This document shows positions 27,481 through 63,611 of a stretch of 64,000 nt of DNA, piece by piece (within the stretch, counting starts at the first letter, position 1; every line of letters starts with the position of its first letter). Source of the DNA: Paracyclopina nana (taxonomy: Eukaryota; Arthropoda; Copepoda; Cyclopoida; Cyclopettidae); contig JAGUCH010000007.1 of assembly GCA_019096065.1 (NCBI GenBank), positions 5,912,501 to 5,976,500 on the forward strand, written 5' to 3'. A program made the translations under genes and the position numbers. The notes below the pieces were generated by a model, which saw nothing but the letters and a program-made list of their open reading frames with translations, had not been told where the DNA came from and did no database searches.

Positions 27481-30400
27481 TCAGTTCAATGACTTGAGAG
27501 ACGAAGAGCTGTCCTTTGCTGTTGACATGTCTTGCATGTTGTTGGGCAGAGAATCACTGTGAGAATTAACCAGTCTGGTAGTGACTTCATCGTTTTCATG
27601 AATGGTGACAAACACCTTTCTGGGAGATCCATTCCGAGTGTTGGGAGATCCAACTGAGGCTGTGCTGCCACCAGCTGTATTTGGTGAGTATCGGTGTGAT
27701 GAACCATTATTATTGCCATTCTTCAACGTGGCTGGCAATTGCAAATGGCGGTTGTTGCCAAAATGTGAGGCATTCTGCAGTGGAATCCTCTCTGGCGTCA
27801 CAGAAAACCCACCTTGATTTGGGTGAGTTGACAGCCTAAAAAGTGCGATAATAGCTTTTATAGTTTATGTCGATTGGAACAACTTTAGGACGCAACAACT
27901 TTAGCAAATCAAATGGCTAGCTATTGAGACTTGACAATTTTCGCCCCATTGTAATTTCAGTTTGGCATACTGAAATTGCACTCCAAAGGATAACGTATCT
28001 TGGCGTCAAGCTCCGAATGGACATGTTTGATTTAAGAGACTGACGTATACATACCTTGTATCTGTGGTTGCAGTGGAATAGTAGCCAGCCATGCTAAAAG
28101 ATTGGCGATTGGAGGCTCTCCGATTGGCACCACTGTATGGATCTGAGCCTCGATTCAGCCTCCATCGTTCCCAATGCTGCTTGATGATGCCTCGAATCTC
28201 GGTATTGAGGAAGCAATATGGAAGGGTGATCACAAATCCCTGAAAATATGCAGCATTGATGAGCTCTATTCACAGAGGGGTCAATAATTAGATCAACCTG
28301 AATGGAAAGCAGAAAAGCTCTGACATATTGGAAGACTCGATGGCCTGGAGTGCCTTCAGTGGGCCCAACAAGAGTGATAATATAGGAAATGCCCAATAAT
28401 GGAAAGATGACAAGGAGTGCTTTGGCAGCTCTCCAATGTTGCCTGTGCCTCTCAGTGGAGCTCTCGGATCTCAGCTTACAAATGACAACCTACAATGAAA
28501 AGATTTGGTAAACCATTCATCGACAATGTCTGGACGCAAAGAAACAATCTCCTTTGAACGTTGAATTCAGTCTCACAGACTGAACGCTCAATTGGGTGAT
28601 GCCATTCAATTCTCAATGATCTGCCATTTGATTTAGTAAAGTTGTAAAGACCAAAAATTGTGCAAAGCGACAAAAACTTTGGACGAATGAAGCTAATTAC
28701 CGCCATGATGACAATCAGGAAGACCATGTTGCAAGCCAGGATGAGCAGGACTGGAGCCTTATAGGCCCACTCACTGTGTGAGGCCTCCACCAGGAATGGA
28801 CAGTGAACTGCGGAATGGTTGACAACAGCCTCTGGTAGCTCTTCTTCATGGGACTCATAGATGAGATCTTCGCTGGCATTGAAGTGAGCCAATGGAGAGG
28901 ACTCTTCATACAGAGCATACTCAGTGCTATAAGAAATGCTGCCCACAACCGCAGAAGTGGAGGTCTGCAGGAAGTAGGTGAGACAGGACCATAAACCAAC
29001 CACAACCAGAGGTAGACCTTTAAGGCAGTCAGAATTAATTTCACAGATTGAACCAAAATTGATGATTTATGGCAGTTACCCCAACCAATGCACAAGTAGT
29101 GCCTGAGTTTGACAATTTCCACGTGGAGGGGCGCCATAACTTGCAAATACAAGTAGAAACCTGCAAGTAGAAAGAAAAAAAATGAGTGACTCAACTTTGT
29201 TGCTCTCTAGCTTGTTTTCAGAGATAACACCAGATACTTTGAAGAAGTGACCTTCTTGACTTTCTGGCCAAAACCAGCATCAGATAGAGTCAACACTTTC
29301 ATTTAGCGGGCGAATTTTCAATTTGCTTCCAAAAAGCTGGGCAAATTTAGCTTTTGGAGTGGCTGAATTGCTTAAATCCACAGAAAATTGGTGGCATCTG
29401 GAGGAAACTTTTTTTTGGTGCATTAATTAAGCACAACTCAGGCATTCTGCCATTTTTGAAACAGTAAAAGTAACAAAATCCCAGCAAATTGCAAACCAGG
29501 TACCATTCAGCATGCAGTAAGGCCAAATTTGGCCAAATATCGCACAAAAATGCCAAATTCAATTGGTCAAATTGCCTTAATATTGGCCAAAATATGCATT
29601 TGAAGTCACCTTCTGGTGTAAATTCTTTTTTAGGCTTTTTTGTGCTTGTGGGACTTTGGCCTTGTCCCCTAAAACAATAAAGGATGCAGAGATGATGCCA
29701 ATGACAGCAACACTTGAGATAAGAGCCAAAAGTAAACAAAACTTTTCCCGCGCGCGCGCGCGCGCTCAGCTGCCTTTGTTTGTGTTAGTTTTTACACTAG
29801 CCAGAAGCTACCTGATTAATCGTGTGATTTAATTAAATATGTACTGCGGGTCATCCAGAAGACTGGCTTGGCTCAAAAACGGGGCTTTAATGAAACCATA
29901 CCTTACTTGTACATAAAATTATTCAAAATACAAAAAATTAGCAAACGCACGCATCTGACTTAAAATTCAGGAGACAGAACAAGAGCTAAATTACCAGCAT
30001 TAACTTGACTTGACTTATTATGCAAGAAAATACCAGTATATTCCACAACAGAGACTTAGATTACTAGAGAAGCGAAATTATGTGACGTCATAGGGGGTGC
30101 GTGCCTCTTTTTTGGGACGCTCCAACAGAGATTACAATGGCTCTTTGGCGCTGGCTGCCTGAGTTTGGGCTGGGGCTGACTTTTCATTCCAAATATTTCA
30201 GAAAAGATCCATTTGTGATCAATGTCAAGTATAGTTTGAATGTAAGTTGACCAAGTGCCTCTAACTTTTATTTTCAACAGTTTTAAGGTTCTTATTGAAA
30301 GTTTCAATTTATTTAAGAATCATTTTTATGGTACAGCCATTTTATCATTCCCGGCTGAGCGTTCCTGGAAATGGTCAAACACTTTCAGAAAAAGTCGATT

Positions 30401-33400
30401 TTTTAACATATATGATCAAACTTGCGAATCTGGTTACTCTGATATCATTTGACGGAAAATCTCGGCTGTTAGGAAACCAAGGCAGTATGGGTAATCTCTT
30501 TCTGATGTAGCACTGATTTTGGCCTTACTCTAAATGGGATTTTTATTGTCAAACAAATGCCGAGTGTGGCATTTTTTGAAAGTATACGTCTACATAAAAG
30601 TGATGAAAAAGATAACTTATTGACGCGTAGCAGAAAAGTGGAATGTTTACATTTTTACTTCGCTTCTCTTATAATCTAAGTCTCTGTTCCACAACTAGGC
30701 AAAAAAGTCCAATTGCGTCATTGTTTTGCTTACCTGACCTGAGCCAAGTAAATGTTATTTATTCCTGCTTTTATGACAACATTCATTTGGACAATCTACC
30801 TCAGTAGAAGAATGAAAGCCAAAAGTTTTCGCATTCAGACTCACAAAAGGCCCAGTTCATCTGATTAATTTCGAGCATAGTCCTCCATTGCTTTCAAATG
30901 TAACAAAAGTTAATAATATTCTCAATATTTGTCAGCTTTAATGCTCAGCTAAAGGTGAGCACAAGGCGCAAAAAGTTTTTTCTTCACCTAGAAGCTTTTA
31001 CATTTTGGCCAAATATGACACGACTTTTTGACATCTCTTTTCCAACAGACGAAGTTTGACACAGCTCAGGTTTTCTCTCACTTTGACACTTTTATGGCCG
31101 CAAATATTTCAATTTCAACTAGTTTTAAAGGTCGCACACAAAGGGAAAAGTTGCATTTCATAATTTTGCAGCATAATTCCGCCATAATTCAACTGCTTTT
31201 CCAGATTGCTGGTTTTTTGAGCTGCTGAAAAGCAACAATATATATTTTGTACGTCAAAATGCAGGGGCATATTTTTATGTAGCAAAAAACGCCATAGATG
31301 GGTTTTCCCCTGAGCCAAGTCAAGTTTGATCGATTAAAAGCTGACGCGGCCTTTATTTCGGCCTTGATAGCTCCTTTATTACACAGAAAGCCATTTTGAT
31401 GCATGCATACAACATATTACGTAAGGTAGTTTAATCGTGATTTATGCCATCCTTTCGCGCAGATTTCCCTCGAGTTTTCTCTTCCTCCATAATTTCCCAG
31501 CTTTTTTGCACATTTTGAGGGGAAATCAAGAGCTTATTTGCAAGTCCACCAAGGAAGAAAAAGGAGAAATATGGGACCTCATGGGGGGCTTTTCACATGC
31601 ATTGCTACTACTGCTTCTTTTCTGTTATAATATTCAGCAGCAGCTGAGGAGATGAACGCGCATTAAGCTGGGGGATAAACCGTCCCTAAGGGAATTCAAG
31701 GTGTGGAAAAAATGCATTCATCCAATCACTAAATAGGATTTCTTCAACACAGTGGATATGGAGGCCTGGATCAACTGTGATTATTAAAAAATATCGCGCG
31801 ATGAAATGCTCATATTTGCAAGTGTAAGCTATTTGCAAATTCATAATTTTTCCCCAGATACGGACATTTTGCACCAAAAGCCTTAATACGAAATTTTTCA
31901 ACAATTCTTAATGATATTTTGTTAAAATATCACCTGCACTTTATGGCTAATATTTTGACGAAATATTTTAAAAGCTAAAAATAGCTAAGAAGTGCTTAAT
32001 ATCCCGTTCATCTGCCCCCAAATTCCTTACGATAATGCACGCCGAACGCCTTACGGAAAGGAGAAAAATTGTCTTATGACAAACACAAAAGTAAACTTCT
32101 GCTGATGCTAATACTTTGGAAAAAAACGGGTCAATTTTAAGACTATTGAAAAGTAAACACTCAAAATTACATTTAAATTTCATTGCCAAACTGGTTACTT
32201 CTGAATCCATATTCATCACACAAATTCATATGAACCAACTCAAAAATTGCAGAGTTATTACGTATAAGATATAGCAGAAATACTCAAAGTTTTTTCTGAA
32301 TTTTGCCCTAAATTTGTTAACTCGATTCCTGGTTCAACTAGTTGAGAAGCTCTTCTTAAGTGGTTTGATAGCAAAACTCCTTTGCCTTATGACAATTTTT
32401 TACTTTCCGAAAAGCAACTTTGCACATGAACGGGATATAAAAGTGTGATTGGATTTTCCTTTGTAAGGCCGATTTTGTCAAAAATTATGTGAAAAATCTA
32501 TTGGTAACTGGCTTGAATTTGCTGTGTTTTAGTCCATATTATTGTGGCGATTGTGGCAAGTCAAAATAATGATATTTTGCAATTTCTTCAATTATGCGAG
32601 CTAAAGTTTCTCAAATAGTCCGCTGTGTTTTTCAGTAGGATCTCAGGCCTCGGAAATGCCGTTTTGCCACAGTGGGTTGTTTCCCCGAAATTATACGCGC
32701 ATAATTTAATCACTATCTTAGATCCACATATTTTTCAAATGTGCTCACTTTTTGAAATGCTCCTGAAAAAGCAGCTTAATTTTCCACTGTGCGTAAGGCT
32801 TAGAGTGCAAGATATGGGAAATTGGAATGGGTGACAACTTTCCAGCTGCTGACACATAAAGATAATCATAATAGCTAAGTAAGGACAACAAAACGCAATC
32901 TTGCTCCTCAGCAGGAAATCGAACTTGGTTCTTAGAGCGGAGCGAGGCAACCCGGCGAAATAAATCTTTTTACACTTTATATGGTCGATAATATTTAAGA
33001 ATATTTTAAGAATAGCTATTTTATTGGTAGCCGCATACTGCAATGCAAAAAAGGCGCTACCTAGTCTCGAACGCTGACCACTCCCATGAAAGTCAATAGC
33101 CTAGTATATTGCGCCAACGAGGCTATAATCTAAAAGCGTCCGCTCTAATAATCCGAGATGGCGTCGCAGCACTCACCGCCAAGGACGCCCAACTATTTTT
33201 AGAATAATAGTATCATATTATTATTTGTTCTGAGCCAGCAAAACAAAGGTGTAGGGAGTTGGCATGTCACTGTATGCATGTATACTTTAGGAGTAGGAAA
33301 TATTATTGACTTTATTGGTCTTGCCATCATTTGGCAAGTAGAGGATATATGATAAATTACCCTGAAGAGAAAGGTAGCAAAAACCCAAGTAAAAGGAGAA

Positions 33401-54550: not shown

Positions 54551-55811
54551 TTATTTGCACTCATAGACAAAGCCATTGACAAGTCCAAAATGGTCTCGCC
54601 TGATCTCCTCTCCCAAGTCATATTTGGCCTGGCACTCAAGATCAATTCCAGTTAACTTTCTGTCTTTTTCCAAGAGCATCCAACGCCCAGGATCTCCAAT
54701 GAAAACACGCTTTGTGCTTGGGGAGGTAGCCTTAAATAGCCTGGCCAAGTTGGACAGTTGGATCCCAAGGTTTTGATCAAAGAACATGTCACCCATCAGA
54801 ACAATGTCAAAAGTCTCAGAGAGCTCTTCTGCTTTCCTGCAAATAAGGCTGCATTAATTAGATAGAAAATTGCACTATTTGCAAACAAACAAAAAAAATT
54901 CTGCATTATGGCTACATAACAAGGGTGCTCCAACTTTGAATTTTATTTTGGTGAGCCATAAATTCAGGTTGGTGGTTCATATTGATGGCCTGAATTGGTT
55001 AGGCCCGTTTATGCGTTCACAAAATTAAAAATAGGAGTGTGAATGGATCTGATATTTTTTGCATGAAATGCAATGGAGACCAAGGTCAACTTTTTCAAGA
55101 TTGAAATTTTCAGAATTTTAGGCTAGCTGCCTTTTTATGATCTCTTCACTACTTTATGACTTCCACCAATGGTAGTACCTTTCAAGGTCACCCTTGAGGT
55201 AATTCGTGGAACCAAGCTTGAGAAAATCCTCTTTGAAGGGGACATCATTTGCATGACAATTCAATTTCACAGCTTCTAATGCATTGGGATCAATGTCATT
55301 AAATGTCACAGGGGTCTGGCAGCCTTTTTTCAATTATCTCCAAATTATGGCTCTCAAACAAATGAATTTCACCAATCTAGAAAAGAAAAATCCTTAGCCT
55401 GTTCTTCTTCGTCAAGAGAGAGTCATTGTTGAGTCAAGAAGGCAATTTTAGCTCTAAATTGAGGGCAATAATTTGGAGAGTTCCTTTTTTTATGGCAGCA
55501 AGGCCTTGAGCTCCACAGCCACACCCCAAGTCAAGAATTCTTTGGCCTTTGACCACTTCAGTATCAAGGATGTATCTAGTCAACACTTGACCACCGGGCC
55601 AGAAAATGGCCCAAAATGGGTCGAAATCTGCCTGTTCTTCTTCGCTGTATTTTGCATGCCATTCTGGCTGATTTGGAGTGAGCAGATAGAAAGCCAACTC
55701 TGGTACCAACTGAGATCTTGAGGTCTGACTTATATCCTTGGGAGCAAATGTGGACTTTAATCTTTTGGGCGCCAAAAATAGCACATTTCTATAGAGTTGT
55801 AGCCTTTTCAT
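54551..55811 (-). CDS. ETFBKMT: ETFBKMT (METTL20) lysine methyltransferase, split by an insertion
   Basis: Mitochondrial SAM-dependent methyltransferase that in mammals methylates lysines of electron transfer flavoprotein beta. Coding pieces: 55811-55483, 55322-55179, then 54836-54551 after a GT-AG intron. Removing the insertion (55331-55482) plus one copy of its 8-bp duplication joins the first two in frame, giving 252 residues that align well with the human protein: FDPFWAIFWPGGQ, DLGCGCGAQGLAA (SAM loop), FNDIDPNAL, VLMGDMFFDQ, FIGDPGR. The start MKRLQLYRNVLFLAPKRL looks like a mitochondrial presequence. With the insertion in place the frame shifts and meets a TGA, and there is no GT-AG pair to remove it. 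Either this allele is broken or a non-canonical intron is used. Confidence 0.9.
55331..55482. mobile_element. 152-bp inverted-repeat insertion within ETFBKMT coding sequence
   Basis: Flanked by a perfect 8-bp direct repeat CCTTTTTT (55323-55330 and 55483-55490). The ends carry inverted copies of TCTCCAAATTAT followed by GGCTCTCAA or TGCCCTCAA (19 of 21 bases match). It interrupts an otherwise continuous reading frame, so it is a recent insertion or a transposon-derived intron. Duplication length suggests hAT, though the termini lack the usual CAG. Confidence 0.88.
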
Positions 55812-56139
55812 TTTGTGTTTACAAATTGCTTCAATTTGTTGTGATGAGAGGTTGCGTTCTTCAGTTTTCCTTTTACTTTGACACAGTTTGCTAATTCTTG
55901 CACTTTTTAGCCTCAAAGAAACGTTTACAGCCTACACTTTTGGGTACATTTTTCAGCTATCCTCTTTTGCTGCTATATGGCAAGGAACACTACTCTTTCT
56001 GTTTCAACTTGAACCAAATCAAAAAAAGGCATCTTGCTTGGAAAGTAAAGAGGTTCAAATGAACTTTTTTGGAATTTATTTTGTCAGTTCACATCAACAG
56101 GAAACTTGGTTGCTCACTGGTTACAAAATGGCGCCATAA
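55812..56139. other. Short intergenic region
   Basis: Lies between ETFBKMT start and the stop of the first sulfotransferase gene; AT-rich, nothing recognised. Confidence 0.5.
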
Positions 56140-57370
56140 TCATTGTTTGGCTTCAGTTGTGAAGCCCAATTGGATATAAACATCTGGGCTGTAGTCAAAC
56201 AGGTCAAAGTCCTTTTTGTACATTTGATAAAGCTGCTGAATTTTTGACCTTTGAACAACTGAAAAGTAATTCTGTGCCATTTCTCTAGTTGAGCCACCAG
56301 AGCTTGTATTCTCGTGAATTAATTGGGGTATCTTTTCCTCCAGCCCAACCTTAAAATATTATGAATCGGTGTAATATGGAGTGTTCAATATTATCAAATA
56401 CCTTTTTGATGATGTATTTCATATCTTTATCAAAAGTCTCCAACTTCCCTATAAAGTCATATGGAATTGTGCACAGGCCACATCTTGATGAGAATGATTC
56501 TATGTGAATATCATGTTTATGTCCAACATCCAACACAAACTCAACAAATTGGCTGAAATTTGGCACCTCTTTCCCATCATGTATGGCCTTGAAAAAGCAA
56601 TCATTATAAATCCACTATGGTAAATTGACAAATACTACTGGCTTGTCCCATGATGAGCTCTTGTACTTAGTCAAAATTCTTTGAACGGGATAGTATTTAT
56701 GATTGACAACTTTATCTTTGTACGCTGAAACAAGCCTCAAAAATGGATGTCTGACAAATATAATAGCAAAGGTTTTCCCAAAAATGGCCCTCTTTTCTCG
56801 GTACTTCAAAGAGGTAGGAATTTCAAATACTTTTGGCATGTACATCCATGGAGTCCATTCTTCCTCTAATTGCTCTGGGAGCTGAGCGAGCTCCTAGGAA
56901 AAGAGTAAACTAATTCGAAAGGTGAATTGACGAAGAATACTTACCATGAAATAATTGAACCATGTTGTAGTACCCACTTTTGGAGTCCAACAGTAGCTCA
57001 GCTGGAGTTCAAAACTGGTAAGAATTTGGTCTCCAAACTGGAACTCTAAGTTGAGATCCTCTTTATAGTTGGCTTGGCATACTTCATTCACTCTTTTCGC
57101 TCTTTCGTCATACTCAGCTTTTTGTTGGTTATCCTCAGAAGAAAAAGTCAAGTTTTCCTTATTGATTTGTATTTTTGGTAGTGTTGTGATGTTTCTTATT
57201 AGTATTTGCTGATACTTTTCTGGGAATGGAGGATTTACTTGCAATATTCTAGTCTCTTGAAATTCTACTTTAGATTTAAAGGTGACAATTAGTAAGCTTG
57301 ATAAAATAGTCAGTGAAAGAATAAGGACTATTTTTTGTTTCAACAAGTTCTCATCTGTTCGCCCTGACAT
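56140..57370 (-). CDS. Carbohydrate sulfotransferase (CHST9/11-like family), tandem copy 1
   Basis: Golgi type II membrane enzyme predicted to move sulfate from PAPS to a glycan such as chondroitin or a related chain. Four exons: 57370-56945, 56893-56639, 56587-56402, 56349-56140; all phase 0, 358 residues. Short cytosolic N-terminus, signal-anchor KIVLILSLTILSSLLIVTF, Asn-linked sites in the stem (RNIT, ENLT), 5'-PAPS site CWTPKVGTTTWFNYFM, 3'-PAPS site VRHPFLRLVSAYKDK. Exon 3 has a FSSRCGLCTIPYDFIGKLET stretch typical of the family. It is the most diverged in exons 2 to 4 of three tandem copies, all transcribed leftward. The true acceptor glycan cannot be told. Confidence 0.88.
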
Positions 57371-58066
57371 TATTTATGCAAGTGAGGCTATTTGCATTAT
57401 GCTACTTCTAGTGAATCCAGCATGTTCAAGTTTACAGCGCATATTTAGCTAAAAATGTGTTTTTTTAGGAGTGTGTTTTCTTTTGAATGATTGTGAAATA
57501 CGCTAAGTGTTGCTTCATTTCCTTTTTGTATATTCATTATTCATGGCAATTAGGACAAGTTATTGGGGAAACAGGAACCAAAAGCTATTAAACCATAGTG
57601 CTAAATAGCCAGGCCATCCACTATGACAATTCTAGACGGAAGTATGCAAATTGATTCACCAAACCTATTTTAGTTCTTTCGTCATTTGTGCGGTGGCGCT
57701 TCAATGAAAAAGCGGGAAATTCAAATTTAGATTTTAGCGCCAATTTTTTAGTGCTCGAGTTGGAGGAGATTATTAACCAGCTTTACCAGACTTGGAATTT
57801 TCACTTCAAAATTTGCTTAAATATGGCGTTTTCTATCATCTGACAGCTTTTTCATAAAACTCACCATTCATAGAGCTCTACTGTTTTCGTCAGAAGCCCT
57901 TCCATAGCAAAGTCAGATGAAGTGTAGAAGTACAGCTATGATAATAGGTCACCTTATATTATAGATCATCTTGGTATTAGCAACTTATTGGTTAAATTAC
58001 TTTTAGAATTTTGCCATGAAAACGAGCAGCTAAGCTAGCATGCATTTTGAATAATATAAACCTGTA

Positions 58067-58218
58067 GGCCGTTCTCATATTGCCGGAAAAAGCTAAGCTA
58101 ACGTAAAAATAGCTAAGCAAACGCTCAACATTTCAAGCAAAGTACCTGCTTTTTGTTAATGTTGAGCGAAATAACCGGTTTTCGTTGCATATTTTTACCT
58201 TAGCTTAGCTTTTTCCGG
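58067..58218. mobile_element. Truncated copy of the TA-flanked palindromic MITE
   Basis: Starts after TA with GGCCGTTCTCATATTGCCGG like the element at 54112-54320 and shares its inner arms, but stops at TTTTTCCGG, missing about the last 16 bases of the right end and part of the left arm repeat. Confidence 0.85.
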
Positions 58219-58339
58219 ATTGTAGATTGAAGATTGCTGAGTGTCAAAGTGGCACAAGTGTTGCAATAGTGAATAAGCAAAAAGAGATTGCGTGGCCGAT
58301 TTTGACGGTTGATAATATATTAATAGAAAATGAAATATA

Positions 58340-58500
58340 TCCTATTCGCTTTGAATTCTACTTTAGATTTCAAGGTAACAAACAGTAAGCTGAATAAAAT
58401 TGTCAGAGAAAGAATAAGGATTATTTCTCATTTCAACAAGTTATCATCTGTTTGCAATAACATGTTTTATGCAAGTGAAGCTATTTGCAACACGCCACGA
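58340..58500 (-). pseudogene. Relic of a sulfotransferase exon 1
   Basis: Closely similar to the start of tandem copy 1 at 57255-57405, including the aagaataaggA..atttc segment, tttcaacaagtt, and the upstream atttatgcaagtgaggctattt (here ttttatgcaagtgaagctattt). The start codon is changed and only the 5' part (signal-anchor region and flank) remains. It shows a fourth gene copy once existed between copies 1 and 2. Confidence 0.8.
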
Positions 58501-59787
58501 GGATTGAGGCCTGGTTTACCTGGTGAAATAACGTATAATGACGTGAGAACTGTCCATGAAACTGGTATGTTATTTTGCTAAAAAGATTCATCCATGGTGT
58601 TGCATTAGCTTTGTAATTTGCCTTGCATTTCATTGCATCAGATACTTAATGACAATAAGATATCCTATAGGGATTAGCGTCATGTCAATTTGTGTCATAG
58701 AACTGTGTGTCGTAGATTGCACTTAGCATGATAGGACTTTGTGCAATAGCACTTTGTATCATAGGGAAATGCATCATGGCGCAAATTGTTCAATAGGAAA
58801 ACGTATCATATCACTTTGTATTGTAGCACTCATAGCTAGGGATATACATACATAGATCATAAAGATAGTAAAGATCACTAATCTTTAAGGCCAATATAAA
58901 AGACACAGAAGCCACTTTGTACCTATCAATTGTAAAGTGTAGAGATAGTATGTAAATAATAAGAAAAAGGGTATGAGTATATTCTCAGCTGTAGGGTTAT
59001 TTGGGAGCCCTGTGCAGCATAAAGTTTGAGCTATCAACCTGAAATTTGGCACGGGCATTCCTCTCCCCATTGCACATAAAGTTTATTGGCGGCACTTTAC
59101 GATTTTCCGCCAAATGACAGACTTTCATTTTTCTCTGTTTTCCGAACACCAAATAAGCTGATTTTTTGTGTGTGACTCTCATTTTGTTAGGGCAACAACT
59201 TTTATTAATAACTTTTTTCCAGATTCAGGCTTCGAAGGGGACTTGCTTATGAACACTTTACGTATTTTTGCAATATCGGCTACAAACCTCAACCAAATGA
59301 GCTGAATTTTTTAATGTGATGATAACTCTCCATGTCCTTCAACTTTTACTCGTATTATTTTTGTGCTTTGCGATTTTTTATCGCTTATAATAATGCAGGT
59401 GAACAGGGCCTTAGTCAGCCCTAGCTAGCATGCACTGAACTTGACCATCACAATTTCCCGATTTGTACACTTACGACTGGTCTTATTTATGCTAACTTCT
59501 GCTAACCTTTTTAGATTTTTGAATTTCAAAGTGACGCAAGTGTTGCAGCAGTGAATAAGCAAACTAAAAGTACATTTGAAGCTTTTAGAGAAGAAAACAA
59601 TGTAAAAAGTTCAAAATATTTATGAGATTTGCCAAAAGCATCGCTTTAGCATAATTATTCATGGATTAAATTTGTTGGCTAAAAAGAAACTTATCATGAG
59701 GAGCTTCTGAAAGTCCAGAGGACTTATTTTACTTTAATGTCCGAAGTAAAAGCGCACTCAATTCAACATTTTTGAAAAGTAACCCAT

Positions 59788-61021
59788 TCAGGTTTTATTT
59801 CTGGATGCAATTTGGATATAAGCATCAGGGCTGTAGCCAAATAGGTCAAAGTCCTGCTTGTACATTTCATACAGCTGTTCAATTTTAGACCTTTCAATTG
59901 TTGAAAAGTATCTCATTGCTTTTTCTTCTGTTGAGCCACCAGAGCTGCTTCTCAAATGAATTAATTCAGTTATCTTTTCCTCTAGTCCAACCTTTGGATG
60001 TGATGAAAAACCGTAAATAAAATTGCCGCCTTCAATAGTGTTGTAAAATACCTTTTTGATGATGTATTTCATATCTTTATCAAAAGTCTCCATCTTCCCT
60101 ATAAAGTCATATGGAAGTGTGCAAATGCCACACCTTGATGAAAATGACTGTATGTGAACATCATACTTATGGCCAACGTCCAATACAAACTCAACAAATT
60201 GGCTGAAATTGGGAAATTTTTGGCCATTGTGGATTACCTATAAAAAGCCTTTATTATTGATGAATTGAAAATTTAGTTTAAAATACTACAGGTAGGTCCG
60301 AAGATGAGCTGTTGTATTTTGCCACCTTAGTTCTAAAGTTATTATAATTTGTATCAATGACTTTGTCTTGGTAGCTTGAGACAAGCCTCAAAAAAGGATG
60401 TCTGACAAATACAACAGCAAAGGTTTTCTCAAAAATGGCCATCTTTTCTTGGTATTTCAGTGAGCTAGGTATATCAAATAGTTTAGGCATGTACATCCAT
60501 GGAATCCATTTTTTGTCCAATTGCTCTGGGAGCTGAGCAAGTTCCTAAGAAAAGAGAGTAACTAATTTGAAGGGTGAATTTTGGCAATGAATGCTTACCA
60601 TGAAATAATTGAACCATGTTGTAGTGCCCACTTTAGGAGTCCAACAGTAGCTCAGCTGGATTTCAAAGCTGATTAGAATTTTACTTCCAAATTGGAACTC
60701 TGATTTGAGATCTTCTTTATAGCTTTCTTGGCATACTTCTTTCACTCTTTTCAGTCTTAGGTCATACTCAGCTTTTTGTTGATTATCCTCTGAAGAATTA
60801 GTCAAGTTTTTGGTCTTGACATGTAATTTTGTGAGAGATTTGATGTTTCGAAAGATTTGTTGAATTTTGTTTGGGAATGTTGGATTAAGTCCCAATATTC
60901 TAATCTGTTTGACTTCTCCTTTAGATTTTGCTGCAATTAACGCAAAAAATAAAACAAATATCAGTGCTAGAAGAAAGACTATTTTGCGTTTCAGCAAGTT
61001 TTCATCTGTTAGCTCTGACAT
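59788..61021 (-). CDS. Carbohydrate sulfotransferase, tandem copy 2
   Basis: Same four-exon plan as copy 1: 61021-60599, 60544-60290, 60237-60052, 59991-59788; 355 residues. Signal-anchor KIVFLLALIFVLFFALIAA, 5'-PAPS site CWTPKVGTTTWFNYFM, 3'-PAPS site VRHPFLRLVSSYQDK. Exon 1 is closer to copy 1, whereas exons 2 to 4 and their introns are almost identical to copy 3, including the end ASRNKT. The last intron (about 60 nt) is open in frame, so a retained-intron product would read through. Role as for copy 1. Confidence 0.88.
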
Positions 61022-61891
61022 TTTTTATTCAAGTGAGGCTATTTGCATTATGCTACTATAAGTGAATCCAGCATGTTCTTTTTCAGGTATTCATGTTTAA
61101 GTTTACAGTTTATTTTTGACTAAGTAAATATTTCTTAAGGAATGTGTTCCCCTAAAAATGCTTTATTAAAGGTTGTAAAATGTGTAAAATGTTGCTACAT
61201 TTCTTTTTTTACATTCATTTTTATAGCAATTAGGACAAGCTACTGGGTTGACAGATATAAAAAGCTATTGCTCCATAGTGTTAAATGAGGAATTTATCAT
61301 TTTATCAGTTTAGCATTTTGCTAAATTACTTCTAGAATCCCTGTATGTAGTTTGCTATGTGTCAAAGTAGTACAAGTGTTGCATCAGTGAATATGAAACC
61401 TCAAAAAGTAAGTGTGTAGCCTATTTCGATGGTTAAAAATCGAATATTGCCTTATCAATGTAAGACTTATCTTTTTCTGTCCATGAGCCCCATTCTAACA
61501 AGGAATGTCACAAAGTATAGTAGGGTAAACCAGTTTTAAAAGTCAGGTCGAGCTAGCTGTGACCTGACTATTCTGAAAAGTTAGGTCATGTCTCCTGACT
61601 ATGCTGATTTTCCTTATTGGAACCGGGCTATATATGTGATAACCCAATTTGCCTTTTTATTGTAATGTTAAGCATTAGCATTGCTTTGGTAGCATACTAG
61701 CATATTTCTTATTTTTATGGATGCATGATAATATGTGTATCCTACATATGTTAATGCTTAGAATAAGAAGAAACTTATATCATGTGCTGCATTTCAAAGA
61801 ATATGGCTGCAAAAATTGAATTGACCTTCCAGTCTAGTTTTAAGCCCAAATTATTAGTGCATTTAATGCAACAGTTTTGAAAGTAATGCAT
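61022..61891. other. Region between sulfotransferase copies 2 and 3
   Basis: AT-rich. A possible 144-bp inverted-repeat element lies at 61486-61629. The first 200 bp resemble the upstream region of copy 1 and probably hold the copy 2 promoter. No gene. Confidence 0.5.
61486..61629. mobile_element. Candidate small inverted-repeat element
   Basis: The ends AGCCCCATTCTAACAAGG and the inverse of the right end, AGCCCGGTTCCAATAAGG, match at 14 of 18 bases. Inside is a perfect AGTCAGGTC / GACCTGACT hairpin. No target duplication identified. Confidence 0.35.
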
Positions 61892-63126
61892 TCAGGTTTT
61901 ATTTCTGGATGCTATTTGGATGTAAGCATTAGGGCTGAAGCCAAATAGGTCAAAGTCCTGCTTGTACATTTCATACAGCTGTTCAATTTTAGACCTTTCA
62001 ATTACTGAAAAGTATCTCATTGCTATTTCTTCTGTTGAGCCACCTGAGCTGCTTCTCAAATGAATTAATTCAGTTATCTTTTCCTCCAGTCCAACCTTTG
62101 GATGTGATGAAAAACCTTAAAAATAAAATTGCCGCCTTCAATAGTGTTGTAAAATACCTTTTTGATGATGTATTTCATATCTTCATCAAAAGTCTCCATC
62201 TTTCCAATAAAGTCATATGGAAGTGTGCAAATGCCACACCTTGATGAAAATGACTGTATGTGAACATCATACTTATGGCCAACGTCCAATACAAACTCAA
62301 CAAATTGGCTGAAATTGGGAAATTTTTGGCCATTGTGGATTACCTATAAAAAGCCATTATTATTGATGAATTGAAAATTTAGTTGAAAATACTACAGGTA
62401 GGTCTGTAGATGAGCTGTTGTATTTTGCCACCTCAGTTCTAAAGTTTTTATACATTGTATCAATGACTTTGTCTTGGTAGCTTGAAACCAGCCTCAAAAA
62501 AGGATGTCTGACAAATACAACAGCAAAGGTTTTCTCAAAAATGGCCCTTTTTTCCTCATACGTCAAGGCCGCAGGAATGCTAAATAATTTAGGCATGTAC
62601 ATCCATGGAGTCCATTTTTTGTCTAAAGAATCTGGGAGCTGAGCAAGTTCCTTTGAAAGTAAATAGCTGAATAAGTAATTGATTGTGAGCAAATTAGAAG
62701 CAGCTTTACCATGAAGTATTTGAACCATGTAGATGTGCCCACTTTTGGGGTCCAGCAGTAGCTCAGCTGGAGTTCTAAACTGGTAAGAATCTTGTCTCCA
62801 AACTGGAATTCTGTACCATTATCTTTTTTGTACTTGGTGTTGCATATTTCTTTCATTCTGTTCACTCTTTGGTCATACTCAGCCTTCTGATATTTGTCCT
62901 CAGAGTTATCAGTCAAGTTTTTTATCACCGTTTGTAATTCTGGCAGTTTTGTGATGTTGGGTAGTTCTTCTGTTGTTGGAAATAGTGGATTTTGGTCAGC
63001 AATGAGCAAGGGTGATTCACCTTGAGGTGTAATTGTTGCAGCATGAAGGAAGCACATCATGATAATGAGAGCAAGGAATAGGAAAATTTTGTGCTTGAAC
63101 AAATGCTCAACTATTTGCCCAGGCAT
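61892..63126 (-). CDS. Carbohydrate sulfotransferase, tandem copy 3
   Basis: Exons 63126-62710, 62650-62396, 62343-62158, 62095-61892; 353 residues. The start at 63126 (MPGQIVEHLFKHKIF) aligns with the starts of copies 1 and 2; an upstream non-ATG extension is in frame but unlikely. Signal-anchor IFLFLALIIMMCFLHAA, 5'-PAPS site CWTPKVGTSTWFKYFM, 3'-PAPS site VRHPFLRLVSSYQDK. Exon 1 is strongly diverged from the other copies while exons 2 to 4 match copy 2 almost base for base, which points to gene conversion or an unequal crossover in the 3' half. Confidence 0.88.
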
Positions 63127-63611
63127 ATTGTAGCCGAGTGATTTTCCGAAACAATAATCCAATGCTGATAGCAATCACACTCGTTCTCACATTTGAAAAA
63201 CTGTTGGGTTGCTTTTCTCACATTTTGATTATGAAAGTTGCTTTGCTCTGGAAAATGGACAGCAACTGCTGAATACGAATATGAAATTGAGCAGGCAAAT
63301 AAATGAATAATTAGCGCAGGGTTGGATAATGTTATTGTACTCATTCCAAAAATATTGATTGGATCAATTAACTCAATTTTGTGCGACAGTCACAGAATAA
63401 AGGCAAAGAGGATAAAATAACACATTACACATTGGCTAGATGTTATCAGCCAAAAGTCTGACGACAATTTGATTATTCAATGAAATCATTTTTGTTGTAG
63501 GCTTAGCAAAAGCCACCTTCTACTTTGTGTATTCGAGTTTGTCACAAGCTTCTGATTTTTATAAGAACATTTGATTTGGCCACCAATTTTCATTAGGGCC
63601 AAAAATAATCC
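63127..63611. other. Intergenic region, nothing recognised
   Basis: AT-rich 485 bp between the start of sulfotransferase copy 3 and the stop of the rightmost gene. No feature recognised. Confidence 0.5.

Follow-up and report, generated by a model that had tools for sequence, protein, structure and literature searches.

A 152-bp insertion with inverted arms breaks the reading frame of the only ETFBKMT locus found in a copepod assembly

The window, i.e. the 64,000-nt stretch of Paracyclopina nana DNA analysed here, contains an ETFBKMT (METTL20) gene whose coding sequence is interrupted by a short insert; the enzyme methylates ETFB, an electron carrier of the mitochondrion. The question raised by this locus is whether the insert abolishes the gene or is taken out of its transcript by some unusual form of RNA processing, the two outcomes between which the original prediction had left a choice. 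That choice stands, and the evidence leans towards the null allele: the most likely explanation is an unremarkable loss-of-function insertion, in a gene dispensable to mice and people, and a very odd intron has a smaller chance. The coordinates of all features are collected in Table 1.

Table 1. Features of the interrupted ETFBKMT locus, in positions of the window
Feature	Position	Strand	Description
Window	contig C7 (G000:C7:5912501-5976500)		assembly of 91.95 Mb in 10 contigs
ETFBKMT (METTL20) exon 1	55484..55811	-	ATG, presumed mitochondrial leader, DPFWAIFWPGGQ, SAM-binding loop DLGCGCGAQG, end ...AIKKG; 110 aa
8-bp direct repeat AAAAAAGG, first copy in gene order	55483..55490	-	
Insert	55331..55482		152 bp, between ETFBKMT exons 1 and 2; one copy found in the assembly
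Inverted-repeat arm	55459..55479		3 nt inside one end of the insert
TGA terminating the unspliced frame	55434..55436	-	15 codons past the join
Inverted-repeat arm	55337..55357		6 nt inside the other end of the insert; 19/21 complementary
8-bp direct repeat AAAAAAGG, second copy in gene order	55323..55330	-	
ETFBKMT exon 2	55179..55323	-	...CQTPVTFNDIDPNALEAVKLNC...GDLER
ETFBKMT ordinary GT-AG intron	54837..55178	-	342 nt
ETFBKMT exon 3	54551..54836	-	...FDIVLMGDMFFDQNL...RVFIGDPGR...GFVYECK, stop
Hypothetical GA-AG intron	55324..55483	-	160 nt (insert and one repeat copy); donor 1.4, acceptor -4.4
Alternative hypothetical GC-AG intron	55316..55466	-	151 nt, in phase, net +3 residues; scores -10.4 and -2.3

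Read without splicing, the frame that opens at the ATG at 55811 passes through DPFWAIFWPGGQ and DLGCGCGAQGLAAIKKG, enters the insert and ends inside it after 125 codons, so that the insertion does break the frame as had been predicted. When the insert was removed together with one copy of the repeat, a joined protein of 252 aa was obtained, with an open frame of 205 aa across the insertion site, and the predicted restoration of the frame was thus confirmed. The joined protein scored 34.9 bits for the seven-beta-strand lysine methyltransferase domain (Pfam PF10294; cut-off 21), vs 17.8 bits for exon 1 alone and 19.0 bits for the read-through product. Alignments to 3mgg_A and 4dcm_A crossed the join without a gap, and the third of the three alignments shown, to METTL5 (9ohl_C), had a one-residue gap after the join, immediately ahead of the conserved DID. 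Searched by itself, exon 1 had no match in the PDB. Human METTL20, in a sequence not drawn from a database, was 36% identical to the joined protein over 248 columns (E 6e-38) and had the motifs DPxWAIxWPGGQ, NDIDP, GDMFxD and RVxIGDPGR in common with it. The identification of the gene as ETFBKMT is supported by the domain score and by this identity. The "near-identical spacing" to the human enzyme was overstated, since the joined protein has one residue extra near the join relative to this human sequence.

The exons on both sides of the insertion are intact, and the gene retains an ordinary GT-AG intron. It had been described as single-copy, and a protein search of the 92-Mb assembly agreed with this description: no second ETFBKMT locus was found, as the 12 matches comprised the gene's own three exons and nine weak ones, none better than E 1.3e-5, that covered part of the protein at 23-36% identity. 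Three matches to ETF-domain genes were present in the genome, and a search for COX1 gave no match.

The word CCTTTTTT stands at 55323-55330 and again at 55483-55490, 152 bp apart, and the predicted duplication is perfect (8/8 bp). Because the repeat is an A-rich, low-complexity word, and because one of 29 ordinary introns carries a 7-bp repeat at its ends, the duplication alone is the weaker evidence. The inverted ends of the original prediction were found as two arms complementary over 19 of 21 positions. Neither arm abuts the duplication, one being separated from it by 6 nt and the other by 3 nt. None of 400 segments of 152 bp drawn at random from sampled DNA of the same genome held an inverted repeat of this quality, and in 15 other introns of at least 60 bp the best end-to-end match was 9-14 of 21. 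When the window was scanned for TSD and TIR together under laxer settings, three hits were obtained, vs 4, 1, 1, 0 and 1 in randomised sequence. The strong part of the insertion anatomy is the inverted arms combined with the restored frame. To call this "direct evidence" of an insertion was too strong, since the evidence comes from the occupied site.

Further copies of the 152-bp element failed to appear: DNA searches of the assembly (E up to 10; very common words skipped) returned only the insert itself. The arm pattern was searched separately with 3 mismatches permitted and the reversed pattern as control, and was found at 57 places vs 11 for the control, two of the 57 being the insert site itself. 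Of the 55 other places 28 were fetched, and none of these 28 had an inverted partner arm equal to the insert's own (20/26); the best partner arms among them reached 18/26, in loci L005 and L030, at 713 and 744 bp. A MITE family for the insert was rejected on these two results. Only sub-threshold matches were obtained in an Rfam search of 55150-55650, and no relative turned up when prokaryote genomes were scanned.

Inverted repeats of the insert type were counted in a non-random sample of 346,608 bp (the window, the 28 arm-pattern loci and 20 kinase loci). The sample contained 64 clusters vs 2, 0 and 0 in randomised sequence, so the genome does hold such inverted repeats. TIR-like sites with 8-bp repeats numbered 13 in the same sample, including the insert site, vs 0, 0, 1 and 1 in randomised sequence. 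A frame test covered 11 of these 13 (two L030 hits were omitted as simple repeats), and of these the insert site was the only one to interrupt a long frame, 205 aa as against 30-74 aa at the other 10.

Other repeated elements were observed during these searches. The TIR-like sites with 8-bp repeats include an abundant family with the ends TAGTGATGGAACGAG, which was read in two copies, at L046 (7828-8326) and L047 (7575-8071), both with 8-bp repeats beside them; its arms had 646 matches in the genome, whereas the reversed control had 6, and among the 100 places listed many pair about 480-490 bp apart. A hAT-like element lies at 30041-30694 of the window, flanked on either side by TTCCACAA; its inverted ends resemble each other over about 30 nt and start CAGAGACTTAGATTA.

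The reading that we prefer, at a probability of roughly one half, is that a small insertion, whether a TIR element or a product of break repair, makes the assembled ETFBKMT allele null or nearly so. A 152-bp segment with inverted ends would have entered an A-rich site at the present end of exon 1 and left the 8-bp duplication behind; its source may have been a small non-autonomous TIR element, or it may have been inserted during the repair of a staggered break. Transcripts of the assembled haplotype would then retain the insert, shift frame and stop after 15 more codons, and the enzyme would lose all that lies beyond the SAM-binding loop, with ETFB presumably left unmethylated. Since the gene shows no other damage, a young age is probable for the insertion, and it may still be polymorphic.

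A null allele is plausible because the loss of METTL20 is tolerated in mice and humans: one report describes viable knockout mice and a homozygous loss-of-function mutation in humans, and places the gene in the tolerant class (PMC5775328). This dispensability, the 30 other introns that can be read as GT-AG and the poor acceptor of the GA-AG cut (both set out below) are the reasons why the evidence leans towards the null allele. The same reading is favoured by the other TIR-like sites with 8-bp repeats in the sampled DNA, by the single ETFBKMT locus found and by the GT donors ahead of the in-insert stop, which all cut in or before the SAM loop. Several points count against it. A recent insertion would be expected to have a source, and neither a second match in the assembly nor an equally good partner arm at the 28 fetched loci was found; the arms are set back from the ends and are not perfect copies of each other; an undamaged gene would also be predicted if the insert were a spliced intron; and the join falls at AAG/G, with a donor context that is ordinary apart from the A at +2.

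The principal alternative, which is the less probable of the two, is that the 160 nt form a young non-canonical GA-AG intron that is removed by the spliceosome, the protein being made. The insertion would have hit a proto-splice site, AAG/G; the 3' AG would be supplied by one copy of the duplication, the 5' GA would consist of the G of the other copy and the A of the insert, and the paired arms would bring the two ends together. The GA-AG cut is in phase and restores the spacing of the family, the flanking exons are intact, and the join at AAG/G is the usual exon consensus, all of which speaks for this alternative. Nine equivalent cuts over the repeat yield the same product and none of them is GT-AG or GC-AG; GA-AG is the only one that ends in AG, and is also the best-scoring of the nine.

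The GA-AG donor and acceptor are each below 28 of 29 introns, and their sum (-3.0) is below all 29 (lowest -1.8), on a matrix that penalises GA by construction because it was trained on GT-AG. With +1 and +2 left out, the donor scores 3.0, which is mid-rank among the 29 introns, and it belongs to the best 3.3% of GA sites. The acceptor tells against splicing, as it has no pyrimidine tract and its score is equalled or exceeded by 66% of AGs taken at random. The predicted fold joins the ends of the insert in a 12-bp stem, as an intron with paired ends would have it, but overall the fold is no stronger than those of shuffled sequences (z -1.04; 28 of 200 shuffles as good). The insert is also single copy, unlike introners. 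Precedents in print speak for the GA-AG intron: introners with TIRs and duplication-derived splice sites, some of them with a 5' GA, are described from hosts that include copepods (PMC9860276), and the new introns reported from Oikopleura are frequently non-canonical, mostly GA-AG (PMC4202315).

Other cuts were tried and rejected. The GC-AG cut at 55466-55316 is in phase but imprecise, and its donor scores -10.4. All of the GT donors ahead of the in-insert stop (15/15) cut in or before the SAM loop. The best acceptor of the region (11.8, at 55377) belongs to the acceptor-like TTTTTCTTTTCTAG within the insert (55353-55377, minus strand), which is followed 4 nt later by a donor-like GTGAAA site, and leads into a TAA in the frame of exon 2.

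Splicing elsewhere in the genome was assessed at 22 exon junctions in 20 protein-kinase loci, where any pair of dinucleotides was allowed to compete. GT-AG was the best pair or within 0.5 bit of the best at 12 of the 22 junctions and within 5 bits at six more; the resulting 18 were kept at first (GT-AG within 5 bits of the best), and all 22 were used in the intron comparison. Five junctions were placed by eye, i.e. the remaining four and that of L044, and clear GT-AG sites were read there. At L043 the score of a GA-AG pair exceeded that of GT-AG by 3.1 bits, and the junction was read as GT-AG since GTGAGA...TTTCTAG fits the consensus; at the first junction of L034 GT-AG fell 8-9 bits short of GC-AG and GA-AG pairs, and was again preferred from the splice consensus. 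The acceptor of the second L034 junction is probably misplaced, which would explain the lowest intron scores, -6.8 and -1.8.

With seven introns of the window and one of a sulfotransferase gene added to the 22 of the kinases, 30 of 30 other introns were readable as GT-AG; the seven window introns were read by eye, a procedure that favours GT-AG. Genome-wide non-canonical splicing of the Fritillaria or Amoebophrya type found no support in this result, which also weighs against a GA-AG intron in ETFBKMT. A bolder form of that alternative is a little less probable: the insertion would have worked at once as a GA-AG intron in an otherwise GT-AG animal, with a 3' site from the duplicated target, a 5' site straddling duplication and element, and arm pairing that offsets the missing signals, and would thus be a newborn intron without an introner family.

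Three carbohydrate sulfotransferase genes apparently stand in tandem on the minus strand of the window at 56000-63200. Frames were checked for the gene at 56-57 kb, which matches Pfam PF03567 (1e-10), and an apparent stop in it falls inside a 51-nt GT-AG intron (56638-56588).

A further alternative, improbable in our judgement, concerns the origin of the insert and is compatible with either a null allele or an intron as the outcome: the insert would be filler DNA from the repair of a staggered break and not a transposon, templated in part from local sequence, with the arms created by fold-back. Daphnia neointrons often have repeats that are ascribed to staggered breaks in the published account (PMC4202315), and the single copy of the insert fits such an origin. 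Over 15 nt (55397-55411) the insert is identical to a direct match in exon 1 (55630-55644), and 51 other chunks of equal size had local direct matches of at most 13 nt. This 15-mer is weak evidence for break repair because 16 of 600 random segments had a local direct match at least as long, and 19/21 arms close to the two ends are found more typically in TIR elements.

An artefact of the assembly or of haplotypes is very unlikely: the contigs are long, arrays of TTAGG, the telomere repeat typical of arthropods, stand on at least one side of C1, C2 and C7 (four contigs were sampled at their ends, C4 at one end only), and a target duplication with an undisturbed frame to either side is not what an artefact should leave behind. 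Arrays of CCTGG/CCAGG, not TTAGG, were seen at the start of C1 and at the ends of C2 and C4 (L052, L055 and L056); at their other ends C1 and C2 have TTAGG. An 83-nt 18S rRNA probe matched two places on different contigs, L059 and G000:C6:6394470-6394552 (99% and 96%), and the 18S sequence had the look of a copepod's.

Scarcely credible is the idea that the mRNA keeps the insert and that ribosomes skip it, leaving the message at one copy of AAA AAA GG and rejoining it at the other, past an intervening hairpin: matching take-off and landing words do flank a structured insert, in analogy to the duplicated words around a hairpin in known translational bypass elements, but we know of no case of ribosome bypass in animal nuclear genes.

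If the allele is null, as we prefer, ETFBKMT of this copepod would add to the natural losses of this dispensable mitochondrial methylase, and would help to probe ETFB methylation outside mammals. If the insert is spliced, a single inverted-repeat insertion would be able to create a non-GT-AG intron in an otherwise rule-following animal, a result that would bear on the origin of introns.

Several known systems resemble the locus in part. The introns of Amoebophrya, a dinoflagellate and not an animal, are alike in the inverted repeats of 8-20 nt at their ends, in their direct repeats and in their uncertain borders (PMC7789003), but more than 60% of them are described as non-canonical, vs none shown among 30 here. 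The non-canonical introns of Fritillaria borealis share with the insert an intron-like form without GT-AG; by the published figures only 5% of mapped introns are canonical there, and AG/AC and AG/AT, with a YAY triplet, are the commonest of the other kinds (PMC13326754), whereas 30 other introns are GT-AG-readable here. The telomere repeat sampled here, TTAGG, is a further difference from that species.

MITEs of the hAT-like type with 8-bp target duplications are alike in the length of the duplication, the inverted ends, the small size and the lack of coding capacity. The insert differs from them in that no second copy was found in the assembly and in its arms, which are 19/21 alike and leave 6 and 3 nt of the insert outside them; its ends are also unlike those of the repeated 8-bp elements in the same genome. 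Introners (Gozashti et al. 2022, PMC9860276) offer a likeness in the insertion into a coding exon, the duplication, the TIR and a possible duplication-derived AG, and 5' GA sites are reported in some of their families. Those families comprise at least 5 copies (PMC9860276), whereas the insert has one copy, a hypothetical splicing and a poor acceptor. Among the break-repair neointrons of Daphnia 118 of 120 derived introns are given as GT-AG, and precise removal of the insert would here be GA-AG; the likeness to them lies in the direct repeats, in a unique sequence and in insertion into an arthropod exon (PMC4202315).
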